Source of the DNA: Bradyrhizobium arachidis
GTDB lineage: Bacteria > Pseudomonadota > Alphaproteobacteria > Rhizobiales > Xanthobacteraceae
Assembly: GCF_015291705.1 (NCBI RefSeq)
Contig: NZ_CP030050.1
Coordinates: forward strand, 6,138,001 to 6,202,000
DNA length: 64,000 bases
Reading direction: 5' to 3'
Shown: one piece after another, positions 1-25,163 of the stretch
Layout: each line of letters opens with the position of its first letter
Numbering within the stretch: position 1 is the first letter of the stretch
Program-made: the position numbers and the translations under genes
Notes under the pieces: generated by a model
Database searches by the model: none
What the model was told of the DNA's origin: nothing
The model's input: the letters and a program-made list of their open reading frames with translations, nothing else

Positions 1-2058
1 GAAGGACACGAACGCGCCGGTCGAGAGTTCGTCGCGCGACAGCTGCGACAGGATCAACAGGATGAGCGCCAGCGCCAGCAGCTCGAAGACCACCAGCGCC
101 GTTTCGAACAGGGTGCCGAAGGTCCGCGCCCGGTACATGCGGGAGCGCAGCTCGGCGAAATCCATGGCCCAGCGCGCAAAGCCGCGCTGCTCGGATCCGG
201 TGGCGCGCAGAGTCGTGATGCCATGCACGAGCTGGAACACGATGCCGTAGATATCGGAGAGGATTTCCTCCCCGCGGCGCAGCGCATCGAGCTGATGATA
301 GCCGCAGAACGCCGCAATCGCGGCGATCAGGGCGAACAGCCCGATCGCCGCCCCCGCCGCCGCGGGCGAGTAGTAGAACATCAGGCCAATGTTGCTGACG
401 AAAAAGAACAGCGCCGAAATCGAGCCGAGCATCAGCGAATAGGCGCCGCGGCGCAATTGATCCGCCGCGACGAGGCGGCTCGTGATATTGCCGGGGCTCA
501 TGCGCAACGCACTGTCAGGCAGCCGCAAAAGCCGATCCATGAAGGCGGCCTGCAAGGCGCCCGCCCCGCGCCCGTCGAGCCGCAGGCTTGCGATGTCGAA
601 CACGAAACGAAAGCCGGCGGCGATGAACGCGGCCAGCACGAGGCCCATGCCGAGGGTGAACAGCGACAGCGTCTGGTGGCCCGGAATGAAGCGATCGAAC
701 GCCAGTTGCATCGCCATCGGCGTCGCGAGGCCGAGCAGCGCGGAGGCCAGCGCCATGGAGACGGCAAGCGCCGTATCCCACCGGTTGCGCAGCCAGCCGA
801 AACCGATGAACTGCCGAAACCCGATCGGCCCATCCGGGAATGGCGGATAGAGCATGTGCGCCTGCGGCGCGAGCCGGGCCGCTAGCGTGGCGTCGACCGG
901 CTTCGGCCTGGCGTGCTCCGCCTCGATCATCACCCAGCGCTTCGCGTCGGTCGGGATCAGCGCCACCGGGCGCCGCGCATCGTCGAGGAAACCGATCAGC
1001 GGACCGAGATCCTGCTGCAGCCAGTCGCCGCTCAGCACCACCTGCCGGTTGCGCAACCGCACCGCGCGCGCTGCGTCGTCGACATTGCGCGCCCGCGACA
1101 GCTGTTCGCGCTGCCGGTTGGTGAAGTCGAGCCCGAGCTTGCCCGCAATGGTGACGAACGGCGCGACGAACGGCTCGTCGCCGACAGGCTCGGCGGCCGC
1201 TTGCGGCGCGACCTTGCCCAGCACCGCGTCGAATCGCGTGAAGGCGCGATTAACCGTGCGGGTGGTGCGCGCCATCCGGCCCTGGACCGCCTGGCGCAAC
1301 GCGTCCTGGCGGGTGTCGTGTGCGCGCCGGACCAGCGAGAACAAGGTGGCGTGGGTGAACTCCAGCAGGCGCTGCCATTCCGACAGGCGAAGGATATCGG
1401 CGGTGCCGACCGCATGAACCTCGCAGGGCCGTGCCGGCGAGATCCAGATGCCGCCGGCCACCGCCGCCACCTGCCGACGATTCATGCCGGCGACCGGCAC
1501 GCCGCCACAGCACGACAGGTCGGCGCCTAGCGCCGTCAACCAGACCACGCCGCCACGGGTCATGAGCGCGGCTTCGCCTGCGGCCTTCTCCTGTTCGCCG
1601 GGCGCGAACGTGACGATATCGAGCGGCGTCGGGCCGACCATGCGGCTCACGGCGGCGCTCAGATGACTAAGCCACCCGTCGATGGATGCGGCCACCGCGT
1701 TGTGCTGCTGCTCGGAGCCTTTGGCCTGGATGGCCAGCGTGTCGGTACGGATGGCGGCGATCGCGCTGGTCTCGACCGCCACCGCGGTCACCAGCAGATC
1801 GTCCTCCACCACGATCGGCGCGATGTACTCGCCGCCGCCGAGTTCGCACAGGAACATGCGTCCCGACAGCTCGTCGCCGCTCTTCACGGTGAGATAGATC
1901 TCGACCCGTCCGGCGGCGATGATGTGGCCTTGCCGGGTTGCGCTGAGCGCCAGGGCCTCGCCGGCCTCGAGATTGATGCTGGGCGCGGCCGCGAACGGCG
2001 CGGCCAGCATGCCGTCACTCGACGCCAGGGTCAGCACGGGTGGGCGGGGCGCCATCAT
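1..2058 (-). CDS. NHLM-type export ABC transporter, second permease/ATPase subunit (partial)
   Basis: An open reading frame on the minus strand starts with ATG at 2058 and stays open to the left edge, giving about 686 codons with the C-terminus missing. Residues 1-330 form a soluble region. Its early part (A-A-G-R-V-E-I-Y-L then G-R-M-F-L-C-E-L-G-G-G-E-Y) resembles the cyclic-nucleotide-binding-like domain found at the N-terminus of NHLM ABC proteins that lack a peptidase. After it come hydrophobic helices of an ABC exporter membrane domain. The ATPase domain should lie beyond the window. The start codon overlaps the stop of the upstream peptidase-ABC gene (ATGATG over TGA), so the two are translationally coupled and probably form a heterodimeric exporter. 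Family assignment rests on this pairing and the domain order. I see no C39 cysteine motif. Confidence 0.8.
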   Translation of the reverse strand, partial: MMAPRPPVLTLASSDGMLAAPFAAAPSINLEAGEALALSATRQGHIIAAGRVEIYLTVKSGDELSGRMFLCELGGGEYIAPIVVEDDLLVTAVAVETSAIAAIRTDTLAIQAKGSEQQHNAVAASIDGWLSHLSAAVSRMVGPTPLDIVTFAPGEQEKAAGEAALMTRGGVVWLTALGADLSCCGGVPVAGMNRRQVAAVAGGIWISPARPCEVHAVGTADILRLSEWQRLLEFTHATLFSLVRRAHDTRQDALRQAVQGRMARTTRTVNRAFTRFDAVLGKVAPQAAAEPVGDEPFVAPFVTIAGKLGLDFTNRQREQLSRARNVDDAARAVRLRNRQVVLSGDWLQQDLGPLIGFLDDARRPVALIPTDAKRWVMIEAEHARPKPVDATLAARLAPQAHMLYPPFPDGPIGFRQFIGFGWLRNRWDTALAVSMALASALLGLATPMAMQLAFDRFIPGHQTLSLFTLGMGLVLAAFIAAGFRFVFDIASLRLDGRGAGALQAAFMDRLLRLPDSALRMSPGNITSRLVAADQLRRGAYSLMLGSISALFFFVSNIGLMFYYSPAAAGAAIGLFALIAAIAAFCGYHQLDALRRGEEILSDIYGIVFQLVHGITTLRATGSEQRGFARWAMDFAELRSRMYRARTFGTLFETALVVFELLALALILLILSQLSRDELSTGAFVSF

Positions 2059-4295
2059 GCCTCGACCTGCTTCTGGTATTGGCGATGCGCCGCCATCAGG
2101 GCGGTGTGGCGGCCGCGCTCGACAATGCGCCCCTCGTCCAGGACGATGATTTCGTCGCAATCGCGCAGGGTCGAAATGCGGTGCGAGATCAGGATGCAAG
2201 TGCAGCCACGGCGGCGGATATTGTCGATGATTCCCTGTTCGGCGATGGAATCCAGCGAACTCATGGCTTCGTCGAACACGATCAGCACCGGATCGACAGC
2301 AAGCGCCCGGGCGATGGCAAGGCGCTGACGTTCGCCCGCGCTGAAATTGCGGCCATTGTCGTCGACGCGCGTCTCGTAGGCCATCGGGCGCGACGCGATC
2401 ATTTCGTGCACCATCGCGTCCCGGGCCGCCGCCACCACGCGATCCTCGCTGATGGTCAGATCCCACATGGTCAGGTTTTCGCGCACCGTACCGCCGAACA
2501 GCGTGGTGGTCTGGTCCACATAGGCCACCGCCGAGCGCAACACCGGCGCCGACAGCCGGGCGAGATCGATGCCATCGATCCGGATCACGCCGTCGCGCGG
2601 CGTCATCAGGCCAACCATCAGCCGGGCGAGCGTGGACTTTCCGCTGCCGGTGGCGCCCGTGATGGCGACGCGACCGCCGGCCGGCACTTTCAGCGAAATG
2701 TCGCGCAGGAACGGCGCCGTCACCGTCGTGTAGCCGAAGGTCAGGCCCTGGATATCCAGGGCGCCATGCAGCGCCGGAATGACGCCCGACTCATCAGGGG
2801 CCTCGAGAATTGGATCGACGCGCTGCCGGCCGACATCGCCGAGCCGGTCGATATGGCCCCGCGCCTGCTGCAATTGCGCGGTCAGCCCCATCACGCTGGT
2901 GACGGGCGCGTTGAAATTGGCCATCAGCGCCTGGAACGCCACCAGCATGCCGATGCTGATGGTGCCTTGCATCACGCCGACGCCGCCGATGAACACGATA
3001 CAGGCACCGGCGATCGTGCCGAGCAGGATTGGCAGGCCGGCCAGAAGCCGCTGCCAGAACGCCATGGCCTGCTCGGCGCTGACGACTTTGGCGTGCTCGC
3101 CGGCCCAGCGCCGGAAGAACAGGTTGTCGGCGCCGCTGGCGCGGTAGGTATCAAGATTGGCGAAGCCGTGGATCATGGTGGATTGCATGCGGGCTTCGTC
3201 CTGCAGCATGCGCCGGTTGGCGTCCGACAGCCGGCGCGACAACCAGACCAGCAGCGCGAGGTTGAGTGCCGCGAATGCGATCACCACCAACGCCAGCGGC
3301 ACGTTGTAGGCCAGCATGACGAGCGCGTAGATCACGATCGACAGCAGGCCGATGAACGTGACCGCGAGACTGCCCGAAAGCAGGCCGGTCAGGCGGTCGC
3401 TGACCATGAGACGATTGGTGATTTCGCCGCTGTTGCGCTGGGCGAAGAACGCCATCGGCAAGCGAAGGATGTGCCACAACACACGGCCACTGGTGTCGAC
3501 TCCGAGCTTGACCTGGAACCGCGCCAGCGTGCGCTGTTGCAGAAAGGTCAGCAGTCCCTTCGCCAGCGCGATCGCCGCGATGCCACCGACCAGCCACCAC
3601 AGCCAGCGCGACAATCCGGCAATCATGTAGTAGTCGACGAACGCGCGTTGCAGACCGGGGATCATCAGGCCCGGCACCACCAGCAGGAAGCCGCCGAGTA
3701 CGGCGGCCAGGATCGGCGCCTTGAAGCCCGGCAGGGTCTGGCGGATGCTGCGCACCAGGTCAGGCGCTTCACCTCCCGCAGCAAAATCGGGGCCCGGCTT
3801 CAGGGCGAGTATCACCCCGGTGAACGCCCGATCGAAATCCTGCGTCGTGAGAACACAGGGACCGGTCGCCGGATCGTTGATCCAGACTTTCTCGCTGGTG
3901 CGGCGCTCCACCACGACGAAATGATTGAATTCCCAAAATACGATGCATGGCAGAACGTCGTCGGTCAGATCGTCTGGACCGACGGTATAGCCGCCGCCCT
4001 CAAGTCCGTAGCGCTCTGCGGTGAGCAGCAGATTCTTCGCATTGGTCCCGTCGCGGTTCACACCGGCGACCTCACGCAGCTCCTCGATCGGGACCCACCG
4101 GCCGAAATAAGCGAGCAGGATGGCGAGACACGCGACGCCGCATTCAGCTGCCTCGTACTGAAGGATCGTAGGTGTCCTGTGCACCGAAGCGTCGCCGATG
4201 CGTGCCCGCAGCGTTGGCCACGCGAAATACAACAGCAGCGCCGCGCGCGACGTCGCCTCGGCGATTTTGGTTTTCAGCGCAAGCAACGCCTTCAC
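2055..4295 (-). CDS. NHLM/PCAT-type peptidase-containing ABC transporter (C39 peptidase, membrane domain, ATPase)
   Basis: 746 residues with a GTG start at 4295 that overlaps the preceding HlyD-type gene (GTGA). Residues about 43-160 are a C39 bacteriocin-processing peptidase: catalytic Cys52 in A-E-C-G-V-A-C, His125 in F-N-H-F-V-V and Asp141 in I-N-D-P-A-T-G. Transmembrane helices follow from about 205 to 500. The nucleotide-binding domain has Walker A G-A-T-G-S-G-K-S-T at 547-555, signature F-S-A-G-E-R-Q near 651 and Walker B I-V-F-D-E near 672-676, so all catalytic residues are present. C39 peptidases cut after a Gly-Gly leader while the same protein exports the cargo. The obvious cargo here is the giant protein encoded at the head of the locus, whose leader matches the C39 consensus. 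Confidence 0.93.
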   Translation of the reverse strand: MKALLALKTKIAEATSRAALLLYFAWPTLRARIGDASVHRTPTILQYEAAECGVACLAILLAYFGRWVPIEELREVAGVNRDGTNAKNLLLTAERYGLEGGGYTVGPDDLTDDVLPCIVFWEFNHFVVVERRTSEKVWINDPATGPCVLTTQDFDRAFTGVILALKPGPDFAAGGEAPDLVRSIRQTLPGFKAPILAAVLGGFLLVVPGLMIPGLQRAFVDYYMIAGLSRWLWWLVGGIAAIALAKGLLTFLQQRTLARFQVKLGVDTSGRVLWHILRLPMAFFAQRNSGEITNRLMVSDRLTGLLSGSLAVTFIGLLSIVIYALVMLAYNVPLALVVIAFAALNLALLVWLSRRLSDANRRMLQDEARMQSTMIHGFANLDTYRASGADNLFFRRWAGEHAKVVSAEQAMAFWQRLLAGLPILLGTIAGACIVFIGGVGVMQGTISIGMLVAFQALMANFNAPVTSVMGLTAQLQQARGHIDRLGDVGRQRVDPILEAPDESGVIPALHGALDIQGLTFGYTTVTAPFLRDISLKVPAGGRVAITGATGSGKSTLARLMVGLMTPRDGVIRIDGIDLARLSAPVLRSAVAYVDQTTTLFGGTVRENLTMWDLTISEDRVVAAARDAMVHEMIASRPMAYETRVDDNGRNFSAGERQRLAIARALAVDPVLIVFDEAMSSLDSIAEQGIIDNIRRRGCTCILISHRISTLRDCDEIIVLDEGRIVERGRHTALMAAHRQYQKQVEA

Positions 4296-5590
4296 GAACC
4301 GCTTCCCAGAACCTGCCGCAGCGGCGGGATCAACAGGCTCAGGGCCGGCAACGACATGGTCTCGATGTCGCTGCCGACCGTCGTGCCGGCGTTGATGCTG
4401 AGATCGGGGCCGCGCGAGGAAGACCAGCGATAGCCGCTCGGCGTGTCCCTGGCGGCGAACAGGTCCACCACGACTTCGTAAGGGGCGCCGTCCTTGGCGA
4501 GCGACTGTCCCAGCTGCCGGTTCTTCAGCGTGCGGTACATGCCTTCCGCGGTCGCCGGCACCTCCGCCACGGTGCGGACGCGGCCTTCGATGAAGCCGAA
4601 CTCTTCCCGCCGCACCGTCGAGGGCGACAGGCGCACGTTCATGCCGGGGCGGACCTTCTTGCCGTCGTTCGACGGCACATAGACAACCGCATAGAGCGGC
4701 CCGATCGGGTCCTTGTCAGCCTTCGGCAGCGCCTCGGCGACCTTGTCGGGAATCAGCGAGAACAACGCGGCGTTGCGATCGACGATTTCGCCCGGATTCA
4801 CCTTGAGTTCGATGACAGTGCCGTCGTACGGGCTCAGCACCACGCTCTGGCGGTCGAGCTTCTCGCGCAGCGTGCGGATCTTGCGCTCGGCGGCCGCGAC
4901 CTTCAGTTCGACATTGAGGCGTTCGCGCTCATCGTCGGTCTGCGCCTTGGTGGCCTCGAAATCGAGGTTGCGAATGCCGTCCTGGGCCTGCGCGCGCTGC
5001 GCCTCCGCCTTGCCGATCTCGACGCGGGTCTCGAGCGCGCTCTTGCGCGTGAGGATCTGCTTGTCCATCAGCACGGCGTCGCCCTTGGCGATCTCGTCGA
5101 GCCAACCGAGTTGCTTTTCAAGAAACGCGATATCGTCCTTGTAGCCCTGCCGGCGCTGCGCGATCGAGGCGGCGAGTGCCGGCCCGCGGCGCTCCTGGAA
5201 TTTCACGATCTGGTCGCGTTCACCGACGGCGTCGCGGTATTCGGCTTCCGCGTTGATCAGGTCTTCGCGAATTTCCGGCTGATCGAGCCGGGCTACCGCC
5301 GTACCGGCCTTGATCTTGTCGCCGACCGCCACGCTGAAGCTCAACAGACGCCCGGGATTGTCGGCGGTCACGTCGAGCAGGCCGCCTGGCGATAGCAAAA
5401 TCCCCTGCCCCGGCACCGTGACGGGCACCGTCAGGACGATGCTCCAGATCAGGCCGCCGACCACGAGACCCGCCAGCGCCAGCAGCGCGACCCAAGTCGG
5501 ACGTCCGACAATGCGGAGCCCCTGGTCGAGCCGCTCCGGCGCCGACAACCTCTCGAGTGCTGCTTCGCGAAAAATGCCCTCGTTCGCCAT
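4292..5590 (-). CDS. HlyD-family adaptor subunit of the NHLM-type exporter
   Basis: 432 residues, ATG at 5590. A single membrane segment (about residues 33-55) follows a short cytoplasmic tail. Next come a biotinyl-lipoyl-like half-motif, a long charged coiled coil (about 110-240, with K-T-D-E and A-E-A-Q-R-A-Q-type heptads) and the second lipoyl half with V-L-S-P-Y-D-G-T-V. This is the order expected for a membrane-fusion protein bridging inner-membrane ABC exporter and outer-membrane channel. It overlaps the downstream peptidase-ABC gene by four bases. No TolC-like outer-membrane partner is visible in the window; it could lie beyond the left edge or elsewhere in the genome. Confidence 0.88.
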   Translation of the reverse strand: MANEGIFREAALERLSAPERLDQGLRIVGRPTWVALLALAGLVVGGLIWSIVLTVPVTVPGQGILLSPGGLLDVTADNPGRLLSFSVAVGDKIKAGTAVARLDQPEIREDLINAEAEYRDAVGERDQIVKFQERRGPALAASIAQRRQGYKDDIAFLEKQLGWLDEIAKGDAVLMDKQILTRKSALETRVEIGKAEAQRAQAQDGIRNLDFEATKAQTDDERERLNVELKVAAAERKIRTLREKLDRQSVVLSPYDGTVIELKVNPGEIVDRNAALFSLIPDKVAEALPKADKDPIGPLYAVVYVPSNDGKKVRPGMNVRLSPSTVRREEFGFIEGRVRTVAEVPATAEGMYRTLKNRQLGQSLAKDGAPYEVVVDLFAARDTPSGYRWSSSRGPDLSINAGTTVGSDIETMSLPALSLLIPPLRQVLGSGS

Positions 5591-5720
5591 GCCCGTTCGC
5601 TACGCCTGGCCGCGCCCGTCCTGATCGGGTGGCCCGCCATATTTACACCAATGGCCTTGCGGCGCTTCAGCTTTTTGCCGCGGATGGTGAATTCCGCGGC
5701 GGCTGACCTGACCAACGCCG

Positions 5721-6110
5721 TCAGTTGTCCTTTCGCGCGCTCTCGGCGGCGACCGCAGGCGCCTGAGCAGCCGCTTTTTTCGCCTCCTCCACCGCCGCAG
5801 GCAGCTTGCGGGCGATATTTACCATCAGGCTGACATACTGGGCGATCCGCGCCCGGTAGGCGTCGCCGTTGGGCTGGCCTTTGGTCAAAATCGCCAGCAC
5901 GGCCCCGAGCTTGTCGGTCTCGATGGCCGCGGTCCCCGGCGACAGCGCCAGGACCGCAGTCATCGCCAGGATGGCAATCTGCTGCGCGTCGTTGGCGGCG
6001 GCCAATTGCTGGAGGGAGAGGCCCAGCGCCGTGCCCAAGGCCTCTGCCGCCTTTGGGTCTGCGGGATCGGCGGCCTTGCCGGACGCCGGCACTTCGGTCT
6101 GATCGGACAC
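5721..6110 (-). CDS. Small uncharacterised protein of the export locus (129 aa)
   Basis: I do not recognise a family. The reading frame is open further upstream, but a GTG at 6110 preceded by AGGAG at 6116-6120 (five-base spacing) is the best start; it lies just after the stop of the giant gene at 6143. The product is Ala-rich, probably helical, with no signal peptide or membrane segment. It has an acidic N-terminus, a central helical part (A-I-L-A-M-T-A-V-L-A-L) and a Lys/Ala-rich tail. Its position between the giant cargo gene and the adaptor gene suggests a role in export or handling of that protein, for example as a chaperone or immunity-like factor, but that is inference from position alone. 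A 130-bp gap separates it from the adaptor gene. Confidence 0.6.
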   Translation of the reverse strand: MSDQTEVPASGKAADPADPKAAEALGTALGLSLQQLAAANDAQQIAILAMTAVLALSPGTAAIETDKLGAVLAILTKGQPNGDAYRARIAQYVSLMVNIARKLPAAVEEAKKAAAQAPAVAAESARKDN

Positions 6111-6142
6111 GTGAACTCCTAATCCCAAACCTGACGTCTGCC

Positions 6143-7400
6143 TCACAGCCAGCTGAAGGTCGACTGAAGGGTTTGATAGAACGTCGCCGAGTTGAGGCCC
6201 AGCGGCTGCACGGTGGTGTTCGGAGGCAGCGCACTGGCCTCGGCCAGCCAATCCCCCAGGCTCTCGAACGCATTGGCAACCCTGTTCAGGCCAAGATCGT
6301 CCTCCACCTGCGTGGCGTAGGTGTTGAGCACAGCGGCGGCAGCCTGCAGGTAGGGATTGCTCAGGATCAGCCGGATCGCGTCGCCACCAAGCGACAGCAC
6401 GTCGCTGGCGAGGCTGAGCGGATGCCCGGTGAACAGATCCTGGAACGCGGCGCCGACATCCTGCGCGAGATTCTGCACGGCCGGGAACTGGAAGCCCACC
6501 GAATATTGGAACAACGCCTCACCCAGCGCCGCACCATCTGCAGCGATCTTCTGGGTGTTGCCGATGTCGGCGAAAATATTCACGATGTCCGTACCCATCG
6601 TATAGATCTGCCCCATGTAGGTGAGCGCCGTGGTGTTCAGGAGGTTGGTGACGAGGTTGCAAGTATTGGCGATGAGCCTAAACGCGCCCAGCAGAGGCCC
6701 CGAAATATTGACCCCGTCCGGATGGAGGTCGAAGTACTTCGCCGTGGCGTCCGCGGTCATCAACGAGACCATGCCGTTCGACGCCAGCTGAACCATCGTG
6801 AATGTCATGGCCGGGCTGAACTCGATAAGCCCGCCGCCACTGAGCTCCACCTCGAATTCGCCCGCCTCGCCGGCGCCGCTTCCGGTCAGACCCTTGCCAT
6901 AGCCGAAGCTGATCTTTTCCCAGGCGTCCCTGAGCACATCGCCGAAGCCGTTGGCCATGTCCTCCGGATCGACGAACTCGCTGGTGGTGCCGAAGATCTG
7001 GTTGATCAGCGCCGACTGCATGGATTGGACGTTCTTGCCGAGCCCGAGAGCATTCAACAGCGGCCCCTGCCCGATCGGCAGGCCGCTCACCAGCAGATTT
7101 GACAGCAGATCCATGTAGCCTTGCGCGGCGGTCGCATTGCCGACGATCTCGCCGCCGATGATGTGCGACAGCGGGAAGTTGGTCCACGCCGTGGTCCAGG
7201 CCTGCTGGTACCAGGCCGCCGCTGTGTGAGCGGCCTGGGCCACGTCCGTAACGCTCGCATTGGCCGGCAATATCAAGGAGATCCACATCTGGCTGAGGTG
7301 ACCAGCGAGATCGGTCTCAACGGAGTAATTGGCCGCATTGCTCTCGACGGCATTGACGGTCGCAATGCCGGTCAGCAACGACTGGATGGTCGTGAGGCCG
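6143..7400 (-). other. Non-repetitive C-terminal region of the giant protein
   Basis: About 420 residues after the last recognisable repeat. It contains a Gly-rich stretch with K-G-L-T-G-S-G-A-G-E, an acidic motif F-V-D-P-E-D-M-A-N-G-F-G-D and then long hydrophobic or amphipathic helices (for example L-L-G-A-F-R-L-I-A-N-T). I do not recognise a known domain. In giant exported proteins the C-terminus often carries an effector or anchoring function; nothing in the sequence shows which applies here. Confidence 0.5.
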
Positions 7401-16400: not shown

Positions 16401-19400
16401 TGGCTGGCCGTGATGATCGATGGAACCGCGGCCGCGATGTCGGCCGTCGCCGCATTGGCGCTCAGAGCGTTCGCCGTCACCAGCGCGGCGAATTCGCCGC
16501 CGACGGCGACTTGCGTCGTCACACTCCCTTGGCTCGCGAGGCCGAGCAGGATGTTGGCCGCCTGGGCGCCGCTCAGGACCGTCGACGTGACGGCAGCGCC
16601 GATGTCGGTGATCGCACCGGTCAACGTGATGGTGCTGTTGCCGATCAGCGCAGCAATCTCCGCACCGACCGAAATCTGGGTCGAGGCGTTGCCGGCCGCG
16701 GCGAACGCCGCCAGCACCGCAAGGCCCTGATCCGCCGTGATGGCGCCGGCGTAGATCGCGGTGTTGATGTCGTTGAAGGCCGACGCGGGGAATTGGATCT
16801 GAGTAAGGCTCAGCATCTCCTGCGCAACAGTGCTGATGTTTGCGCTGTTGCCGCTGACCAGCATGCCGATCAGCACGCCGAACGACGCGTCGGCAGCGCC
16901 GAGCGCGGCGACGAGCGCGACGGCATCGGACACACTGACACTGCCGACCTGGATCAGCGCGTCGATCTGGCCGCCGACCACGATCTGGGCGGCGATGCTG
17001 ATGGATCCGGCGCCGACCAGCACCTGAACCGCTTGGCCGCCGGTCAATTGATGGGCGTTGACCGCGGCAGTGATATCGGCTGTCACCTGGGTGAGCGGGA
17101 GCCCGTGGGCGGCCGTCAGAGAGGCGAAGACGCTGCCAATGGTGTTGAGGTAGACGGTGCTGTTCGCGCCGCTGGGCACGTCGGCCGCCAGCGCCAGCAA
17201 CAGCGCCGCTTGCTGCGTGACATTGAGCGCGGCGTTGCCGTTGACGGCAGGGTTCAGCACGACATTGAACGACGCGAACTGGCCGCCACTGACCATGGAC
17301 CAGATGGTGCTGGCGACAAGCGAATTGACCGTCGGGTTGTTGTACGCGGCGAGCGCTCCGAGCGCTGTCGCCATCTGGGGTTGGGTGATCGGCGTATTGG
17401 GCCACGCGGAGCCAAGCTGGGCGGCGAGCGCCTGTTGCACGGCAAGCGCCTGGGCGACAGTCAGTGCGCCGCTTGCAACAGCGTTGACGATGTCGGCATT
17501 CACCTCGGCTGCCGAAACGTTGTTTCCGGGGAAATCGCGCATCATGTGCACGATGCTCGGGACGTTGCCGACAGCATTGGCGCCATTCAGCGACGAGACG
17601 ACGAACTGATCGAGACTGCTGGCGCTGTAGAACGGCGCAACCAGCGACGACAATTGTGCGATGACGGCGCTCTGCAGGCTCGCATTGCCGCTTGCGGCGG
17701 TGAACATCATCACCGGGATGGCCGGCAGAATGCTGGTCGGGGTGATGGTGTCGGTGGTGCCGAAGATGTCTGCGACCGCCTGGCTGGCGGTCACGGTACC
17801 GGCCGTGACCATCGCGGCGATATCGGCGCCGACGGCGGCCAGCACCGCCCCGGACCCGGACTCGGCCAGATACGTCAGCAACGAGATCGTCTGGTCCGCG
17901 GTCAGCGCATTGGCGGCGCCAGCGGCGGCGACGTCGGCCACCACCTGCGTGGCGGCGACCTGGTTCGCGGCAATAAGCGCGTTGATGGCGGAGAGCGCGA
18001 AGACCTGCATCGCCGCCGTGCCGCCGGTGAGGAGACCAATCAGCGCCGTGGTCGCCTGATTGCCGGTAATGTAGCCGCTGCTCACCAGCGCGGTAATTTC
18101 CGCTGCGGCAGCGTTTTGCACCGCCAACGAGGCCGGCGCCGCGAGATCCGCCAGCACGTCCACGGCTTGCGTTGCCGTCAGAACCGACGCCGCCACCGCG
18201 TTGCCGATATCGGTCATCACCAGCGCCGTGGTGATCTGGTTGTTCGAGATGAATGTGCCGAGTTCGGCGCCGACAGCCGCCTGCATGCCGGTGACGGCCG
18301 CGAGCTCGAGCAGGATGCTGACCGCCTGCGGGACCGTCATCGCCGAGCTGTTGACGGCCGTGGTGATGTACTGGGTCGCCTGCCCGGGCACGCCGAGGCC
18401 AGCCATGACGACGGCGGCGGCGCTTGCGGTCGCGCTGCTGCCATTGAGCGCGATGCCGGTGAGGATATAGAATGCTTCGTTGCTGCTGATGGTGCCCGGG
18501 GCGAGGCCGCCGACCTGCGCAATGGCGGCGCTGGCGGTGATGGCCCCGGACTGGATCATCGCGGCGATGTCCTGGCCCGCGGCGAATTGCGCGGTGATGG
18601 AGCTCGCCACATAGGCGAATGCGTTGATCGCTTCCACCGCCGTCAGCTGGCCGTTGCCGACCGCCGTGACGATGTCCGCCACGGCCGCCGTCGCGGTGAT
18701 CTGCGAGGGAACCAGCGCCGCGAGCGCCTGATAGATTCCGGTCGGGCCGAGCGGCGAATTCGGATTGACGTTGCCGCTGATGCCGAGCATCGCCGCCAGC
18801 AAGGTGATGCCTTGGTCGGCGGTAATCGCGCCGTTGCTCACCGCGGTGGAGACGCCACGGGCGGCCTGAGTCATGCTGAATGTCTGGGCGTTCAGCAGGG
18901 ACACGATGGCGGCCGCCACCGCATTGTCGAGCGTCAGGCTGTTGTTCGACGCAAATCCGGCCAGCACGACCACCGCCGTCGCCGGCGTGAATCTCGACGA
19001 GATCAGCCCAACGATGTCGTTGATCGCGGCCGTGTTGGAGACCTGCCCGGCCGCAACCAGCGCGCCGATGGTATGCGACACGAAGTTCGTCGTGAACGAC
19101 GCCACGCTGCCGCCTTCGCTGCCACCAGACCCGGTGAAGACGCTGGTCAGCCCCGCGATCGCCTGCACGGCCGTGATCTTGCCCCCGGTGACCAGCGCGA
19201 CGATCTCTGCCGACATCGCGGTCTGCGTGCTCGTCGACCCCAACGAGCCGAGATTGGTCAGCAGGTTCACGGCCGCGGCTGCGGTGATAGCTGAGGCCCT
19301 AACGGCGCCGTCGACCGCAGCGGTGATCTGCGTCGCCGAGACCTGGCTAGCGCTCAGCAATGTCGAGATTTCCTGGGACATCATCGTTTGCCAGGAAAAC

Positions 19401-22400
19401 CCGTCGCCGGGTGACGACGGGATGACGGAGAGGTCTACCAGAATGGGCAGCGCCTGCGGCGCCGTGATGGCGGACGCGTTCAGCACCGCGATGATGTCGA
19501 GGCGCGCCTGCCCCGGCGACACCAGCGTGCTGATGTCCGCGACGGCCGCACTCGTGGTCGCGGCATTGCCGCTGACCGCCATGCCGATCAGGATGTTGAA
19601 GGTTTCGGCCGAGGCGAGGCCACCGATCGCCGTAATCGCAGCGCTGGCGGTGATCGCGCCGGTCTGGATCAGCGCGGCAATCTCGGTCCCGGCGGCGACC
19701 TGGACGCCGATGGACCCGCCGGCAATCAGGCTGATAAAGGCCGAGATGGCCTGCGCCGCCGTCAACTGACCACCACCCACGGCCGTGACGATGTCCGCCA
19801 TGACGGCCGACAGGGTGAGCGAACCGGAGACCAGTTGACCGAGCGCCGTGACGATCGCGGCCTGGTTGATGGCGTTGCTCCCGACGGCGCCAAGCATCGA
19901 GGCGAACAGCGCCACGGCCTGGTCGGCGCTGATGGCCTGGGTGCTGACCGCCTGCGTCACGTCCGCGATCGCGGAGGTGATCGACAACGCGCCGCCTCCG
20001 ACCAGAGACAGAATCGTGCCGGCGACCGCATTGTCGAGCGCGGCGTTGTTGCTCGCGGCGAGGCTAGCGAGGAAGGTCACCGCGGTATCGGCCGGGAAGG
20101 TCGCCGAAATCAACGCCGCGATGTCCGCGTTGATCTCCGCGCGCACCGACGCATTGCCGCTCGCCGCGACGTTCATCAGCTGCACGATCGCGAGTTCGAT
20201 CGAGGCGACACTGCTCGTGTTGGTCGAGTGGGTGATGGCGGCGACGGCATTGGTGGTGGAAATCGAGGCCGAGCCGATCAGCGCCGCGATCTCGGCGCCG
20301 GCCGCGGCCTGCATGGCGGTCGATCCGGTGGCGGACAGCATGTTCAGCAAGGAGACGGCCTGGTCGGCGGTCAGGACATGCGCGGTCACGGCGGCCGCAA
20401 TGTCGCTGACGGCCTGAATGGCCGTGATCTGGTTCGCGCCAACCAGCCCGTTGATCTCCGCGACCACGAATGCCTGCATCGCTGTGGTGCCGCCAGCAAA
20501 GACACTGGCCAGCGCACCGACCACCTGATCGGCCGTGATCGCGCGGCTCGTCAGCAGTGTCGTAATTTCGGCGGTGGCCGCATTTTGCACGGCCGTCGGA
20601 GCCGGGACCGCGACATAGGCCAGCAAAGTCACGGCTTGCGCCGCCGTGAGGACGGACGACGTCACCGCCGCGCCAATTGCGCTCATCGCCGCACTGGCGG
20701 TGATCTGATTACTCGCGATCAGTGAATCGATTTCGACGGCGACCGCCGGCGTCATGCTCGCACTGCTGGCGAGGTCCATCAGCAGACCCACTCCCTGCGC
20801 AGCGGTAATCGTGAATGTGGCAATAGCGGAATCGATGTCGCTGACCAACTGCGTTGGCGACAGCAGGCTCGCCATTCCCGCGGTGGCGGCCCTTGCGGTC
20901 GCTGTGTCGCCGCTGGTGGCCAGGCCGAGCAGGATATTGAATGCCTCCGACCCCGACAGGTTGAGGCCAGCGATGTCGGTAACCGCCGCACTTGCCGTGA
21001 TCGCACCCGACCCGATCATCGTGGCGATGTCGGCCCCCAAGGTGAATTGCAGAGGCGTTGAGTTGGAAGCCAAAGACGCCAGCAGGGCAATGGTCTGACC
21101 GGGGTTCAGAACATGTGAAGCACCTGCGGCCGCGATGTCGGCGAACGCTTGCACCGTCGTGATCTGGTTCGCCGCGACAAGCGCGCCGATCTCCGTCGCA
21201 ACGAATGACTGCATCGCAGCCCCGCCGCCCGCGACAAGACCAGCCAGCGCCGTGACCACCTGATCGGCGGTCAGATTGCCAGCGGTCACCAGAGACGCAA
21301 TTTCCGCTGTGACGGCGGTCTGCACGGCAGTGGACGCCGGCGCCGCGATGTCTGCCAGCAAGGTCACGGCTTCCGTCGCGGTCAGGGCCGATGAGGTCAC
21401 CGCGCTGCCGATGGCGGTCATGACCTGCGACGTGGTCAGCTGGTGGTTCGAGATCAGGGAATCGATCTCACCGGCGACAGCCGCTTGCGTACCGGTCGAA
21501 CTGGCGAGATCGACCAGGATACCAAGCGCCTGCGTCGGCGTGATCGCGGTCAGGCCAATGGCGGAATTGATGGCGGCGATCGCCTGCGACGGCGAGCTTA
21601 CGCTCGGCATTTCCGCAATCGCGGCGCCCGCGATCGCGGTGTTGCCGCTGCTCGCCATGCCGAGCAGGAAATTGAACGTCTCCGTAGTGGACCAGTTGGA
21701 GCTGACGATGTCAGCAATGGCCGCATTTGTGGTAATATAGCCCGACCGGATGAATCCGGCGATGTCGCCACCTGCCGTGATCTGCGCGACCGTGGAGCCG
21801 GCGGCAAGGCCGCCAAGCGCGGCGATGGCCTGCCCCACTGCCAACCGACCGGAATTCACTGCGGCGACGACGTCGGAAAGACTCCCCGTCTGCGCGCTCG
21901 CCGGCGCCAATTGATTGAGTACGGCATCGACCGAGAGCGGACTACCGACGTTGTTCGCAAGATTGGAGTAGTTCGGCGCGAGGTTCACCAGCGAATTCAG
22001 CAGCGCAAAGCCCTGATCGCCGCTGATGGCGTGGCTGTTGATCTGTTGCACCAGATCCGCAACGGCCGTCGTCAGCGTGAGGCCGCCGGCATTCACCAGC
22101 GACAGCACACTATTGGCCACTGCGTTGTCGAGAACGGACTCGTTGCCGTTGGCGACGGCGTTCTGCATCGTGGCCAACAACGGCTGGAAACCCGCCAGAG
22201 CGCCATAATCGCCAGCGATCACCGCATCCATGGTCAGGGTTTTCGCGACCATGATCATGTTCATGTCGGCGGTCGAATCGTGGCTGATTCCCGAATAGGA
22301 ATGCGCCGCTGCGGCACCAATATCGGCGGTGATGTGGTTGCCCGTGGTCAGACCGCTCGCCATCAGGCTATTGTACTCGCTCGCGACCGCGGCGTGCATC

Positions 22401-23077
22401 GCCGGCGTACCGGCTGCATCGTTCAGGACATTGATAACTTGATCGAGGGTCAGCGCACCCGCCGCACCATTTGCGTTGACGATGTCGGTTACGGCCTGTG
22501 TTGCGGTGAGGCTGCCCGCGGTCACCAGCGCCGCGATTTCCGTTCCAGCCGCGGCCTGAACGCTCGCGGAAACCGGTCCGCTCATACCCGCGAGCATGGT
22601 GACCGCCACATGGCCGGTCGACTGCCCTGCGGTAACCGCTCCCGCAATGTCCGATATCGCCTGCGTGGCACTCACCTGCCCCGCGGCGATCAGATGGCCG
22701 ATCTCGGCGCCGACCGCATACCCATCATTGCTGTGGCCCGAAGTCTGCGTGATCGCGCCGGCAAAGTCAGCAAGCGCCTGAGTGGCGTGAGTCTGATCGT
22801 AGGCAGCCACCGCCTCGATCAAATGCATGGCCTGAGTTTCGGTCGTCTGGTGATTGACGACGGCCTGCGCGATCTCCTGGGAAGAGACGCCGGCGAGCAT
22901 CGAGTTCGCATCGAGATTCAGATGGGACGTATCGAAGCCCGCAATCGAATTGAATTGACCGGGAGGCGGCGTGATATTTCCACCAACAATGCCGTTGAGG
23001 TCGTCCGCGCTCAGGGGCTGGAATTTGGCGGTCGTGTCGCTCGACGATTTGCCTGTGCGTTTACCCTTCGCCTTCAC
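6143..23077 (-). CDS. Giant double-glycine-leader repeat protein, probable substrate of the adjacent C39 ABC exporter
   Basis: One uninterrupted frame of about 5,640 codons. GTG at 23077 is six bases after GGGAGG and is the best-supported start. ATG at 23083 touches the GGGAGG, and GTG at 23110 has none. The N-terminus is Lys-rich, then L-S-A-D-D-L-N-G-I-V-G-G ends at residue 33, a full match to the bacteriocin-type leader (L-12, S-11, D-8, L-7, I-4, G-2, G-1). A long array of ~55-residue repeats follows, each like L-T-x-D-Q-A-V-x-L-L-A-x-L-A-x-x-G, then a helix with Q-x-A-x-x-x-E-I-x-x-L-I, then I-T-A-x-Q-A-x-x-D-I. The repeats predict three helices per unit, an alpha-solenoid. The last ~420 residues are non-repetitive, with F-V-D-P-E-D and an amphipathic, hydrophobic end. 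Cys is rare. I see no RTX nonapeptides and no Sec signal. A surface or secreted role is inferred; the biological function is unknown. Confidence 0.88.
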   Translation of the reverse strand: MKAKGKRTGKSSSDTTAKFQPLSADDLNGIVGGNITPPPGQFNSIAGFDTSHLNLDANSMLAGVSSQEIAQAVVNHQTTETQAMHLIEAVAAYDQTHATQALADFAGAITQTSGHSNDGYAVGAEIGHLIAAGQVSATQAISDIAGAVTAGQSTGHVAVTMLAGMSGPVSASVQAAAGTEIAALVTAGSLTATQAVTDIVNANGAAGALTLDQVINVLNDAAGTPAMHAAVASEYNSLMASGLTTGNHITADIGAAAAHSYSGISHDSTADMNMIMVAKTLTMDAVIAGDYGALAGFQPLLATMQNAVANGNESVLDNAVANSVLSLVNAGGLTLTTAVADLVQQINSHAISGDQGFALLNSLVNLAPNYSNLANNVGSPLSVDAVLNQLAPASAQTGSLSDVVAAVNSGRLAVGQAIAALGGLAAGSTVAQITAGGDIAGFIRSGYITTNAAIADIVSSNWSTTETFNFLLGMASSGNTAIAGAAIAEMPSVSSPSQAIAAINSAIGLTAITPTQALGILVDLASSTGTQAAVAGEIDSLISNHQLTTSQVMTAIGSAVTSSALTATEAVTLLADIAAPASTAVQTAVTAEIASLVTAGNLTADQVVTALAGLVAGGGAAMQSFVATEIGALVAANQITTVQAFADIAAAGASHVLNPGQTIALLASLASNSTPLQFTLGADIATMIGSGAITASAAVTDIAGLNLSGSEAFNILLGLATSGDTATARAATAGMASLLSPTQLVSDIDSAIATFTITAAQGVGLLMDLASSASMTPAVAVEIDSLIASNQITASAAMSAIGAAVTSSVLTAAQAVTLLAYVAVPAPTAVQNAATAEITTLLTSRAITADQVVGALASVFAGGTTAMQAFVVAEINGLVGANQITAIQAVSDIAAAVTAHVLTADQAVSLLNMLSATGSTAMQAAAGAEIAALIGSASISTTNAVAAITHSTNTSSVASIELAIVQLMNVAASGNASVRAEINADIAALISATFPADTAVTFLASLAASNNAALDNAVAGTILSLVGGGALSITSAIADVTQAVSTQAISADQAVALFASMLGAVGSNAINQAAIVTALGQLVSGSLTLSAVMADIVTAVGGGQLTAAQAISAFISLIAGGSIGVQVAAGTEIAALIQTGAITASAAITAIGGLASAETFNILIGMAVSGNAATTSAAVADISTLVSPGQARLDIIAVLNASAITAPQALPILVDLSVIPSSPGDGFSWQTMMSQEISTLLSASQVSATQITAAVDGAVRASAITAAAAVNLLTNLGSLGSTSTQTAMSAEIVALVTGGKITAVQAIAGLTSVFTGSGGSEGGSVASFTTNFVSHTIGALVAAGQVSNTAAINDIVGLISSRFTPATAVVVLAGFASNNSLTLDNAVAAAIVSLLNAQTFSMTQAARGVSTAVSNGAITADQGITLLAAMLGISGNVNPNSPLGPTGIYQALAALVPSQITATAAVADIVTAVGNGQLTAVEAINAFAYVASSITAQFAAGQDIAAMIQSGAITASAAIAQVGGLAPGTISSNEAFYILTGIALNGSSATASAAAVVMAGLGVPGQATQYITTAVNSSAMTVPQAVSILLELAAVTGMQAAVGAELGTFISNNQITTALVMTDIGNAVAASVLTATQAVDVLADLAAPASLAVQNAAAAEITALVSSGYITGNQATTALIGLLTGGTAAMQVFALSAINALIAANQVAATQVVADVAAAGAANALTADQTISLLTYLAESGSGAVLAAVGADIAAMVTAGTVTASQAVADIFGTTDTITPTSILPAIPVMMFTAASGNASLQSAVIAQLSSLVAPFYSASSLDQFVVSSLNGANAVGNVPSIVHMMRDFPGNNVSAAEVNADIVNAVASGALTVAQALAVQQALAAQLGSAWPNTPITQPQMATALGALAAYNNPTVNSLVASTIWSMVSGGQFASFNVVLNPAVNGNAALNVTQQAALLLALAADVPSGANSTVYLNTIGSVFASLTAAHGLPLTQVTADITAAVNAHQLTGGQAVQVLVGAGSISIAAQIVVGGQIDALIQVGSVSVSDAVALVAALGAADASFGVLIGMLVSGNSANISTVAQEMLSLTQIQFPASAFNDINTAIYAGAITADQGLAVLAAFAAAGNASTQISVGAEIAALIGNSTITLTGAITDIGAAVTSTVLSGAQAANILLGLASQGSVTTQVAVGGEFAALVTANALSANAATADIAAAVPSIITASQSFNIQIGMALSGDPALQTTLTPAQVMTNINGALGASSITITQALALLAQLASGSSAMQSAVAGEINLLVGNATITAATADQAFAVLAQLAHVGNGSIQSAVVGDINLMIADSIITTSQAMTDIATAVHGASLTGDQAVALLVGIAAQGTLSVQFAAGGSIVGLIAAGQLAATSAATDIGNAVTSSSLTSDQAVAILLGMSVGTNAAAASAAAHELQILVTPAQLIADINNAVTASQLTATQALSVLATLAATGSTAMQTAAVTEINTLIGGLTVTQAMNELLAIAANGLTVQGAVASEINTLISGNLLTAAQAAADIGAAVPSVLTADEAVTLLINLATSAPAAVQTAVRAEISTLITGGQITADRAVIDLVGVAATGSAALQAAVVAEINTLIAANQTTAARIIANLGTAVATGLLGVDEVITLTAILVASSSQAQVYQAGLGIANFVNSGLATAAQAVADVMSATSQGVTLDQAYALLVNAAGGNSALDAALRTQLFTGTVPDLPSLAALLPAANSAVAAEIGKAILWTAYQTPATTQAQANQDPQIAANAIVTQPCDQAVTALVAMAGLGAQFGANAGDVGRILGAAVINGIEAIIGHGQVTGASAVADIVNGLNAGLISADQAAYMMTYLASSGYVTQAAAGAGMVAAIAQSSLVFTKLYAGDYTYFIPSQYNLDQQVQLYAGVIGAPSASPSLQATVASWIAAYTPLSLSGGQVVGDIDVLVASGALTPAQAAVVFYQLGANVGSAYGGYTDSLQTALQGAISGLGPNATAGIVELISDQIITADHGVALLLSLVGNGTGSNSLVASEIATLVHNNATTAAQVMTDIITTVSSGGATVDQAVTLLAVLSIQGNATLQSAADAEILSLVTGNQIPAAQAMTDIGNTIAAGTLTGDQAMALLASLAGSGNAAVQAAIGSEIASLIGAAKLTASQVNTDLATAITANALTVDQAVVVLGSEALAGSAAVRTAAIGELSALVSGNQITAAQVGADIGSAIGTGFTADQAVALLASIAAQGNAALQGAAATEILALIADHQVTAAQAMTDIGNAITAGTLTGDQAIGVFALLANSGTAAEQATIGAELATLIAAATITATQVTTDINTAITSSTLTADHAVAVLANLATAGSSTVVGAVVTEIAALVGANRISAASVATDIVGTIGASLTIDQAVALLAGVGGQSGVALQAAAISSILTLVQNSQITIAQALIDVGGTVAAGTLTGDQAVGVLAALANAGSAAQQQAVGAEIAALIAANRITASRAMTDLDSAVAAGAITADRGITVLAGVWLAGGTGVPATVVSEIVALVTEARLSAVQAATDIGGMVGGVLTANQDVTLLASLWLQGGTTVRGAVAQELVTLITNGNVTAGQFGAAITAGALTADQVIALMAVVASDGTTQIQTAIGAGIAALIAGNQITVTAAISDINTAIANGVLTPDQGVTVLSGMSANGSTAVQTAVADEIEVLMDPVISASQAMADIANAVGNGITIDQAVAMLAVLWTENDATLQGAVVTEILALISGGQITAAQAMTDIGNTLAAGTLTNTQVTALFSALSSAGSSTVQTAVAIEVANLQGVAGIDAQVTSHGITAAAAIPALLNLLAGDPSQQSAVTTELLKLAGETPSVVPLIASDIAAAIGQNFSADQAINLLIVVGAQGNAALQASCGAEIASLITSNQASIAQVMSDMLGAVDSQWTAGLDPWARTGADIRTISPDQAIALLTAISSHSGAAVQVAAGDTIFVFTQLNWISAAQAVGDITAAVTSGALGAGPAVVMLAAGAEFAANILQSGYYTIFSNGIPANYVAPTQSVFLGGITTLIANNALSAAAAMADVATIAGVPTLGFTDQATQYWIYRTQFGSVTTTQYQGPSYIYTYSIDSVGVNATTAPANASHVLSLLVGLAEIGTTAVQSAAGTEISTLIGQNQITATQAATAIGGAIGNGMTADQVMAMLAGIAATGSSTATAVGNEILALVTAGKITPTQAMTDIDHAVAASALPAGAALTVLNAVAAGGNASEQTAVIGEVGALLVESKITFSQALSLLATVAGEGPTAVQTAAVSEIATLITGHQLTATQALPTLITIAGDGNGTVQAAVVSEIVTLLTGNQLTVTQVVSGIGNAVGAGLNGDQAASMLVLVAAQNTAAQSAVTAKLDALVSGNQITPSQVTGALLFAFAAGTMSNGQVLSMLIGVAAGGNTALALAVGAAMDPWVGGSYSPNYLSINGVAAVVAAVTSHTLSANQAVAVLASMEMTVFNYEVQTGQGNSALFAAWVTNNLVATNLITAEQAVGALLPLWGQNSTLLQATVVKELTALLAGNGSGALMTPAALMADITTAVTSNSLPSSQAVILLGALQSLAPTTSYPAILNEIGALANLVGGGQIIAQIQATLTSSQVQTIFSDLEGSIYFVNSKVAQFMAQLLAGVATTGAANTMLAGAALASMVVQQQLTVYTFNITPLITSGALTQAQGVNVLAATIANLPSSAIESVGIAGQPGVNAINNLANYIAALAGVAAIGEIDAFVGASSASMTACGALAGAFADLLTRLNSQGQPLATVAQIVTQVNNDVSNNVLGADRAIWLLSGLAAHVTSPLIGAEIATLVTSGRITAAQAISDLDAAVTGNLLSASQAIAVLGGIAANAHGNATLLTGVANEVASLEGAVLGTTQFQAAITYAAGEFVALASGQKTAAQVITDLETYSTASVPADVLLSVALIESQGAGLTTAANALATEIYNRINNDAAESGLAQLVSQGILSLTMAQQIVTQALTAAWSNIPTPVLNLPNVPATGPYSASVTGGITAPMTLQQALVPAIDLLNQDVIAYTDAPAVIAGTMTAATAIANVEAYSGSFPYVVDVALMHLSTLVNAGVGPAPNLTLLQQLGGYTPADLQAVQNAYNALTAANAAILVALGHRLGTGTTEIGLVGAITGGYLSYTQAMALLNSELTAALVHASTTENSALHSVAYAWIDIVANNIANSGALSIHNAALAVQSQIESGGLTTIQSLLTGIATVNAVESNAANYSVETDLAGHLSQMWISLILPANASVTDVAQAAHTAAAWYQQAWTTAWTNFPLSHIIGGEIVGNATAAQGYMDLLSNLLVSGLPIGQGPLLNALGLGKNVQSMQSALINQIFGTTSEFVDPEDMANGFGDVLRDAWEKISFGYGKGLTGSGAGEAGEFEVELSGGGLIEFSPAMTFTMVQLASNGMVSLMTADATAKYFDLHPDGVNISGPLLGAFRLIANTCNLVTNLLNTTALTYMGQIYTMGTDIVNIFADIGNTQKIAADGAALGEALFQYSVGFQFPAVQNLAQDVGAAFQDLFTGHPLSLASDVLSLGGDAIRLILSNPYLQAAAAVLNTYATQVEDDLGLNRVANAFESLGDWLAEASALPPNTTVQPLGLNSATFYQTLQSTFSWL
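8480..22810 (-). repeat. Degenerate ~165-bp tandem array encoding ~55-residue helical repeats
   Basis: Successive units can be read by eye, for example near 13,200-13,900, where units of 54-55 residues begin with L-T-G-D-Q-A, L-T-V-D-Q-A, F-T-A-D-Q-A and L-T-A-D-H-A. Dividing the span by 165 bp gives about 87 units, an estimate and not a count. Copies diverge at both DNA and protein level, and several have insertions. Block-level duplications also exist: an L-D-N-A-V-A anchor and an F-N-(I/F)-L-x-G-M-A anchor recur together. Array edges are approximate because the terminal units are more degenerate. Confidence 0.8.
22979..23077 (-). other. Double-glycine leader coding segment of the giant protein
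   Basis: These 33 codons run from the preferred GTG start to the Gly-Gly at protein positions 32-33. The last twelve residues fit the C39 leader consensus at every anchor position. The preceding stretch is basic (K-A-K-G-K-R-T-G-K) and lacks a Sec hydrophobic core. The residue after the predicted cut is Asn. The matching peptidase is encoded about 19 kb downstream in the same locus. Confidence 0.8.
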
Positions 23078-23083
23078 CGCCAT

Positions 23084-23435
23084 CCTCCCGGTTACCGTCG
23101 GCTGAATCACCTATCGTTTACGTCAGTCTCGAGCGCAAGGCAGTTCAGTCGTCATGCGTGGGGCAAAGCACATTTCAGCAGGCCGAAGCCCAAAAATGAG
23201 CAGATGCAGGACCTTGTTTGTGAATGCACGTTCGCAATGACGCTCCGCAATAATCGGCGTCCTGCAATATCCGCGCGGCGTGGCCGAATCGTCTGAATCG
23301 ACTCCCTGAAATGCGCATGCCGCGAACGCCACTAACTTTCACATAGTGGTGGTGTGCGCTATTTTCGGATGCTAGGGTCAACCACGAATTGCTACCATTC
23401 GTCCGTTGCCGACGAAGCGTTTTCTGGAGGGGGCA
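23084..23435. promoter_or_regulatory. Divergent intergenic region between the giant-protein locus and an outer-membrane barrel gene
   Basis: About 350 bp separate the divergently transcribed giant gene and barrel gene, so promoters for both should lie here. The region is less GC-rich than its flanks. It carries GGGAGG just upstream of the giant gene and GGAGGGG at about 23426-23432 for the barrel gene. I could not identify convincing -35/-10 pairs or a clear operator palindrome by eye. Confidence 0.4.
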
Positions 23436-24269: not shown

Positions 24270-25163
24270 TCATCGGGATGCCGCTACGCTGCGCGCCTGA
24301 TCGCCAGCGCCATACGCGCGACAGGCTTCGAAAGCCGACTCGATGATGGCGAGCTTCACCGCTTGGGCGGCGTGATATTCGCGCCAGAATTCGGCCGAGA
24401 CCCACAACGCGGATTTGCCGCGGGCGCCCGACCAGCCAAGACTGCCCATCGTCTCGGCGACGACGAATTTGCGGGCGAGCTGGCTCCGCGACAAATTGAG
24501 GCCCTGCGCCAACCGCGAAACCGACGTCACGTCGGTCGGAATGCGTGACAGAGCGATCGAATCCTGCTGACACCCGACGATCAGGCGATCCATCACGACG
24601 CCGCCATCGTCGATCCAGGTAAACAGCGAGAAGGTTCCGTTCGGCTCCCGAACCGCGCGCGATGCCAGCAGGCCATCGGCGATCAGCGGCTGAATCGCGC
24701 CGAGCAGAGCCGGCCGCTCACGCAGTTCAGCCGACCTGTTGCCGCCATCGAGCCCGTCCAGCGCCGTCAGATGCGCCGCCAGCCAATGCGACAACACTGC
24801 AAGCGCCAGCGGCGACGGCTCGATCGGCCGATAGCGCCGGCCTTCGCTCCCCGCAACATGGCGCACGGTGCCGTATTTCAGCATCTCGTTGACGAAGGCT
24901 GACGCAGTGTTGCGGCTTGCGAGTCCGTGGGCGACGATCGGATCGACCAGTCGTGCGGGCAGAATTCCGGAATCGGTCTGCTGTGCCTCGTTGCGAAAAT
25001 AAGCCGCCAGCATCGCCTGACTCATCAGCCAGCGCTGCTGGGTCGCGAACGGCGACGAAGTTCGCGGGCTGGCCTCCTGTATCGCCAGCATTGCCTGAGC
25101 CTGGCCGCGAACGCAGCTCTCCAACGCCGGATGCGACAGGATATCGTCTGCAGTCATCACCAT
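24270..25163 (-). CDS. Probable DNA-binding protein with two helix-turn-helix-like regions
   Basis: 297 residues, ATG at 25163 (another ATG at 25157 is in frame). I do not recognise a named family. A first helix-turn-helix-like segment lies near residues 68-105 (I-V-A-H-G-L-A-S-R-N-T-A, then L-K-Y-G-T-V-R-H-V). A clearer one is near 215-240 (S-V-S-R-L-A-Q-G-L-N-L-S-R-S-Q-L-A-R). This looks like a tandem winged-helix transcription factor. It converges with the outer-membrane barrel gene, 27 bp apart. Its location on the integrase side of tRNA-Leu would be consistent with island cargo, but that is inference. Confidence 0.6.
   Translation of the reverse strand: MVMTADDILSHPALESCVRGQAQAMLAIQEASPRTSSPFATQQRWLMSQAMLAAYFRNEAQQTDSGILPARLVDPIVAHGLASRNTASAFVNEMLKYGTVRHVAGSEGRRYRPIEPSPLALAVLSHWLAAHLTALDGLDGGNRSAELRERPALLGAIQPLIADGLLASRAVREPNGTFSLFTWIDDGGVVMDRLIVGCQQDSIALSRIPTDVTSVSRLAQGLNLSRSQLARKFVVAETMGSLGWSGARGKSALWVSAEFWREYHAAQAVKLAIIESAFEACRAYGAGDQARSVAASR

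Follow-up and report, generated by a model that had tools for sequence, protein, structure and literature searches.

Can an exporter that cuts a short N-terminal leader from its substrate carry a protein of more than five thousand residues? Type I secretion systems are described as falling into two groups, one exporting proteins above 50 kDa with a C-terminal signal and the other exporting substrates below 10 kDa with a cleaved N-terminal leader (PMC10231218). The question is raised by a locus on a 9.87 Mb Bradyrhizobium chromosome, contained in a 64,000-nucleotide stretch that we call the window, where a giant repeat gene with a double-glycine (GG) leader heads a set of exporter genes. The NHLM export system (TIGR03794/03796/03797), as described in PMC2887384, likewise comprises an HlyD adaptor, a C39 peptidase-ABC protein (ABC1) and a second ABC protein (ABC2) with the same Gly-Gly motif pattern, but it handles NHLP/Nif11 peptides, whereas here there is no such precursor or RiPP enzyme and the predicted cargo has 5,611 residues. 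In our view the adjoining NHLM-type exporter probably has the giant as its dedicated substrate. The locus fits neither of the described type I groups, and the literature searched, which left out most subscription journals, yielded no paper on a giant GG-leader cargo.

All five genes of the locus lie on the minus strand, in the order giant, 129-codon gene, HlyD, C39-ABC and second ABC. The initial annotation had proposed a protein of about 5,640 residues heading a co-oriented locus in this order, and both the size and the order hold: the giant has 5,644 to 5,655 codons depending on its start, and the same order recurs in all three genomes that carry it. The longest reading of its frame spans 6143-23110 (5,655 codons from the first GTG). 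The start is likely either ATG 23083, giving a gene at 6143-23083 with 5,646 codons, or GTG 23077, giving 5,644 codons; the latter lies a few bases after a GGAGG-type site, and the codon is GTG in each of the three genomes compared. A spacer of 32 bp separates the giant from the 129-codon gene (5721-6110), and another of 130 bp separates the latter from the HlyD gene (4292-5590). The HlyD gene overlaps the C39-ABC gene (2055-4295) by 4 bp, as does the C39-ABC gene the second ABC gene, which occupies 1-2058 and continues past the window edge to L007 position 9128. A consensus scan listed no terminator-like site on the minus strand from the giant's stop to HlyD.

Profile scores and alignments support the assignment of the exporter to the NHLM type with an intact C39 site. 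The adaptor scores 305.2 bits against NHLM_micro_HlyD (TIGR03794, cut-off 156.2) and the second ABC protein 710.8 bits against NHLM_micro_ABC2 (TIGR03797, cut-off 709.4). The C39-ABC protein matches NHLM_micro_ABC1 (TIGR03796) over its full length at 850.6 bits, 2.7 bits under the cut-off of 853.3, and the next-best model scores 494 bits lower (HlyB 357 bits, LssB 326 bits). Its best solved relative is PCAT1, and Cys52, His125 and Asp141 align with PCAT1 residues that we take to be catalytic; the triad is intact, and the number 52 first given for the cysteine is correct. The intact triad and the relationship to PCAT1 both favour the pairing of exporter and giant.

The leader occupies giant residues 1-35 (22979-23083, minus strand) and ends LSADDLNGIVGG. 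A strict GG motif occurs once in the giant, at residues 24-35. Shuffling the first 80 residues 20,000 times never produced it, and produced a relaxed motif in 41 cases. A position matrix was built from 53 distinct leaders, all belonging to small ORFs of other Bradyrhizobium NHLM loci; among 346 ORF N-termini ranked with it, the giant came out at the top (score 21.4; next distinct 16.7). A chance origin of the motif is ruled out by these shuffles and this rank, which favours the pairing. The score of 21.4 lies under the range of the matrix's training set (5th percentile 29.3), below that of usual peptide leaders; this and the sub-cut-off ABC1 score weaken the pairing. Between the window's own genome (G000) and a second carrier (G161), 7 of the 22 pre-motif leader residues have changed, a higher rate than at the start of the cargo, where 7 of 200 residues have (p = 8e-5). 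Of the 12 motif residues 1 has changed, which does not differ significantly from the pre-motif part (p = 0.21) and is a point against the pairing. The overall pattern is compatible with a leader that is removed and whose recognition motif is kept, and the faster change of the pre-motif part relative to the cargo start would again favour the pairing. No hydrophobic segment occurs in the giant's first 60 residues, consistent with the absence of an N-terminal signal of that kind.

An alternative is that the exporter serves an unrecognised small product, which could be an unlinked precursor or the 129-residue protein; the giant would then leave the cell by another route or stay inside. The gene for the 129-residue protein immediately precedes HlyD and is conserved in the two further carriers at 89-91% identity, and at many NHLM loci no cargo was found beside the exporter; both points speak for such a product. 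However, the protein has no GG leader by the motif used, and the giant has one and no other recognised export signal. A GG-motif scan of the window gave five rows, four in the giant's frame and one inside ABC2, and no small GG-leader ORF by the motif used. The giant is thus the only GG-type gene found there, and the initial annotation was right that no NHLP-type precursor is visible in the window. Across the whole genome, TIGR03793 (NHLP) gave 0 matches over cut-off and TIGR03798 (Nif11) none, which also stands against an unlinked precursor of either kind; the lack of such a precursor nearby favours the pairing with the giant. We regard the small-product explanation as improbable. The 129-residue protein is absent from the other loci compared and matched no family, PHROGs and PADLOC included. 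Two below-cut-off TIGR03793 matches lie at G000:C1:5293977-5294372, within a 240-codon frame that perhaps encodes a nitrile hydratase-type protein.

After removal of the leader, the cargo would comprise 5,611 residues and 550 kDa, with a pI of 4.05, 51 K/R, 307 D/E and 4 Cys; GGxGxD (RTX) repeats number 0 in the giant. This composition, together with the lack of a hydrophobic N-terminal signal, favours the pairing. The repeat region covers residues 100-4927 (8303-22786, minus strand), within which a profile picks out a three-helix unit of 51-55 residues 85 times, accounting for 3,843 of the 5,646 residues. The C-terminal 697 residues (6146-8236, minus strand) are mostly non-repetitive and without a family match. 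For the unit's three segments the hydrophobic moment is highest at 100, 85 and 105 degrees, close to the angle of a helix; in segment B, where the peak is at 85 degrees, the value at 100 degrees is weak. AlphaFold2 predicts residues 3124-3506, which contain seven repeats, as an all-helical solenoid of 21 helices, three per repeat (mean pLDDT 92.3, pTM 0.88). In Foldseek against the PDB this model found no close solved fold (best TM-score 0.33); the one match at E <= 0.001 is a designed protein, and the others are generic helical solenoids. Profile searches of the PDB with the repeats and the C-terminus separately returned 0 matches each at E up to 1, and no explaining family was found for the scanned pieces in Pfam, NCBIfam, PHROGs or PADLOC. 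A Pfam match to PF02637 (GatB_Yqey) on one repeat (30.3 bits against a cut-off of 27; 21 elsewhere) was discounted and is taken as short helix similarity. We also rejected a phage or defence protein, since five proteins or pieces searched against PHROGs and PADLOC gave nothing at E up to 0.01. A search of the own genome with a 2,000-residue repeat piece gave 12 matches, all inside the giant.

Size and composition invite comparison with known adhesins. LapA, too, is a giant type I adhesin, very large, repetitive and acidic, with its exporter in the operon. The giant could accordingly be viewed as a classical RTX/LapA-type adhesin with a C-terminal signal, in which the GG motif would be irrelevant. 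SiiE, a giant type I adhesin of 5,559 aa, and the RTX adhesins resemble it in being very large, repetitive and acidic with a type I exporter in the operon, and its few cysteines also recall SiiE (PMC5156944). A degenerate C39-like domain in RTX-type exporters is a rule with exceptions, and CyaB, an RTX transporter with an active C39 domain, also speaks for this view (PMC8277102). The giant differs from SiiE, LapA and RTX proteins, however, in having an N-terminal leader rather than a C-terminal signal, no RTX repeats, a helical solenoid that is not Ig-like where it has been predicted, and an exporter whose C39 triad is intact and which scores far higher to NHLM_micro_ABC1 than to HlyB or LssB. 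A search of its last 697 residues for a type I C-terminal family (NCBIfam, E up to 0.1) gave only an unrelated match below cut-off. We therefore consider a classical adhesin very unlikely, and return to the giant as substrate of the NHLM-type exporter.

The distribution of the giant bears on this pairing. The giant-type HlyD (98% identity) occurs in 3 of 265 Bradyrhizobium genomes, always with the giant, and the next-best HlyD is 38% identical. Searches with the giant's C-terminus matched the same three among 195 Bradyrhizobium genomes, and searches with its first 950 residues matched 4 of 167, the three carriers and a fourth, G053, whose weak match (E 4e-4, 26% identity, internal stop) was taken as chance. 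These three samples overlap, and each includes the window's own genome; relatives with the giant and without the exporter, which had been named as a refutation of the pairing, were sought among them and none was seen. A scan of 385 genomes of the class with the first 1,333 residues found one weak match outside the own genome (E 1.7e-5, 28% identity, in a 263-codon frame), and a tblastn search of plasmids with the first 950 residues found none.

A full-length orthologue of 5,617 codons in G161 is 86.6% identical over aligned residues; in the third carrier (G110) the gene is broken by runs of N, and its pieces are 94-99% identical to those of G161. Between G000 and G161, dN/dS is 0.37 overall (5,487 aligned codons) and 0.19-0.53 per block of about 600 codons. 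The giant is under purifying selection, which favours the pairing. Other long frames exist at the locus, such as a plus-strand frame of 1,177 codons; for the giant, an artefactual frame on a GC-rich strand is ruled out by the dN/dS value and by the full-length gene in G161. Across residues 2,601-3,000 (14084-15283), identity of G000 with G161 falls to 51-60%, and the block that covers them has a dS of 0.56, compared with about 0.08-0.32 in the others; given this low identity and raised dS, the segment was likely exchanged by recombination. The carriers are closely related (dS of about 0.2), and since they are only three, their conservation of the locus is weakly independent evidence.

The three carriers have one common block, which runs from a point some 1 kb left of the window as far as 25,579; outside it, the compared flanks stop matching. 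It also holds an outer-membrane beta-barrel protein (PF13505; 23406-24242, plus strand) and a 297-codon gene without a family over cut-off (24270-25163, minus strand). Because the block is shared and its flanks differ, the giant and its exporter set appear to move as a unit, and this, with the tight gene order kept in all three genomes, favours the pairing. At the left edge (L007 ~8985-9035 and the matching edge of L014), G000 and G161 have, on inspection by eye, what resembles the 3' part of a tRNA gene whose anticodon loop reads CAT, perhaps an integration scar. ARAGORN called no tRNA in the relatives' pieces, the left edge of G110 has no tRNA-like piece, and in G000 the block edges showed no repeats of >=14 bases. 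In G000, a gene for tRNA-Leu (gag) is located at 26104-26188, about 0.5 kb past the right edge of the block.

How might such a cargo be moved? We propose that the C39 domain would bind the leader and cut it after Gly-Gly, as the motif and the catalytic residues suggest. The chain would then be moved unfolded, its N-terminus leading, through many ATP cycles of the ABC1/ABC2 pair, together with HlyD and a TolC-type channel whose gene lies elsewhere. PCAT1 and CvaB, the exporter of microcin V, also have an active C39 domain and a leader cut after Gly-Gly, features that are predicted from sequence here, but their known cargo has 66-88 residues, as against 5,611 (PMC6959990 and PMC10231218). Alternating access through a cavity of 15,000 cubic Angstrom has been proposed for PCAT1, and at the density used in that work (PMC6959990) the giant has a volume of about 677,000 cubic Angstrom, or about 45 PCAT1 cavities. 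It is too big for a single alternating-access step and so would have to be threaded. For large proteins, C-terminal signals and linear extrusion are described (PMC10231218, PMC6959990), and the microcin V exporter is poor at 116 residues, where export falls abruptly, if not strictly (PMC10231218), which weakens the pairing.

The shared block contains no TolC-type gene that we could see, which likewise weakens it and would suit a different outcome, in which C39 cuts the leader and the giant is freed or kept in the periplasm or inner membrane instead of being threaded via TolC. PhoA behind a microcin leader, as reported in PMC10231218, reached the periplasmic side only. Against this stand the conservation of the HlyD adaptor with the giant, 13 TolC-domain matches elsewhere in the own genome, and a Spirosoma NHLM locus with TolC directly before HlyD, and we give a periplasmic end point very little credence. 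Should the giant instead be exported, the chain would fold outside the cell into a very long acidic alpha-solenoid, predicted for seven repeats and extrapolated to the rest. It may then form an extracellular or surface fibre, perhaps held by the C-terminus, the last part to leave, a suggestion that we put forward tentatively and at slightly less than even confidence. A surface or matrix role in this soil and root bacterium is our guess from size and composition.

Were the giant indeed the substrate, it would break the split between leader-cleaving exporters for cargo below 10 kDa and C-terminal-signal exporters for cargo above 50 kDa, imply N-first threading, and reverse the export polarity of giant surface proteins. 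A natural cargo of 550 kDa with a GG leader would lie beyond what alternating access in a single step can account for, and would therefore also make C39 substrate movement directly testable. It would further caution that a system annotated as 'NHLP bacteriocin' may have another cargo.

NHLM loci elsewhere place this arrangement in context. Genomes with an NHLM HlyD over cut-off number 57 of 195 in the genus, 18 of 385 in the class and 10 of 398 in the phylum, with the own genome in each sample. We compared 41 of the non-giant Bradyrhizobium loci, 20 of the 21 non-own class loci, 4 loci outside the genus and 10 of 29 plasmid records, and saw no second giant among the Bradyrhizobium, class, phylum and plasmid loci compared. 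With sizes counted from the nearest start, GG-leader ORFs were found at 30 of 40 other Bradyrhizobium loci (39-85 codons; the longest has 139 when counted from the farthest ATG), at 5 of 20 class loci (<=194 codons) and at 7 of 10 plasmid loci (<=358 codons). None was found at 10 of 40, 15 of 20 and 3 of 10 of these, respectively, nor at 1 of 4 phylum loci, by a motif that misses at least one real case (L154, found with a looser motif). Since no adjacent GG-leader ORF was found at many NHLM loci, a cargo may be encoded away from its exporter, and being neighbours does not by itself prove a pairing. A second NHLM exporter in the own genome, at 4.21 Mb (L059, G000:C1:4203000-4222900), has a 65-codon GG-leader ORF adjoining.

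In trees of both ABC1 and HlyD, a long branch leads to the giant's exporter, within the same part of the tree as a four-locus clade (L132, L152, L153 and L154). The 41 other Bradyrhizobium exporters lie apart from it, together on one side of a branch; by these trees, the giant's exporter is a separate lineage within the genus sample. The trees are midpoint-rooted, with a warning that long branches meet, and the ABC1 tree was made by a quick method; L149, L150 and L155 were dropped from the ABC1 tree and L131 from the HlyD tree as short. Like the giant's locus, the four loci carry a GG-leader protein before the exporter genes and have no NHLP precursor in that place. Unlike it, they have this protein directly before HlyD, without a 129-residue gene, and a cargo at least 15 times smaller: 365 aa in Azospirillum oryzae (L132, 16734-17831, plus strand); for L152 (10637-11398, minus strand), L153 (1839-2501, plus strand) and L154 the choice of start puts it at about 190-253 aa. 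The initial annotation's premise that C39 exporters carry peptides only is thus slightly too strong, failing at these few related loci, whose proteins of about 190-365 residues favour the pairing. Because the same part of the tree includes L131 and L156, which carry ordinary peptide precursors, it is not purely a protein-cargo group.

We see an even chance that the locus represents a third kind of type I secretion, in which a C39/NHLM exporter would cut an N-terminal leader and thread a half-megadalton, RTX-free, all-helical solenoid N-first, having evolved from peptide exporters by cargo enlargement through GG-leader proteins of a few hundred residues. Those at the related loci may provide a graded series. 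The GG-leader proteins of L152 and L153 look helix-rich and have similar C-termini. In two further NHLM exporters, L145 and L148, the position of the catalytic C39 cysteine is occupied by serine (HESGAA and SDSGAA).
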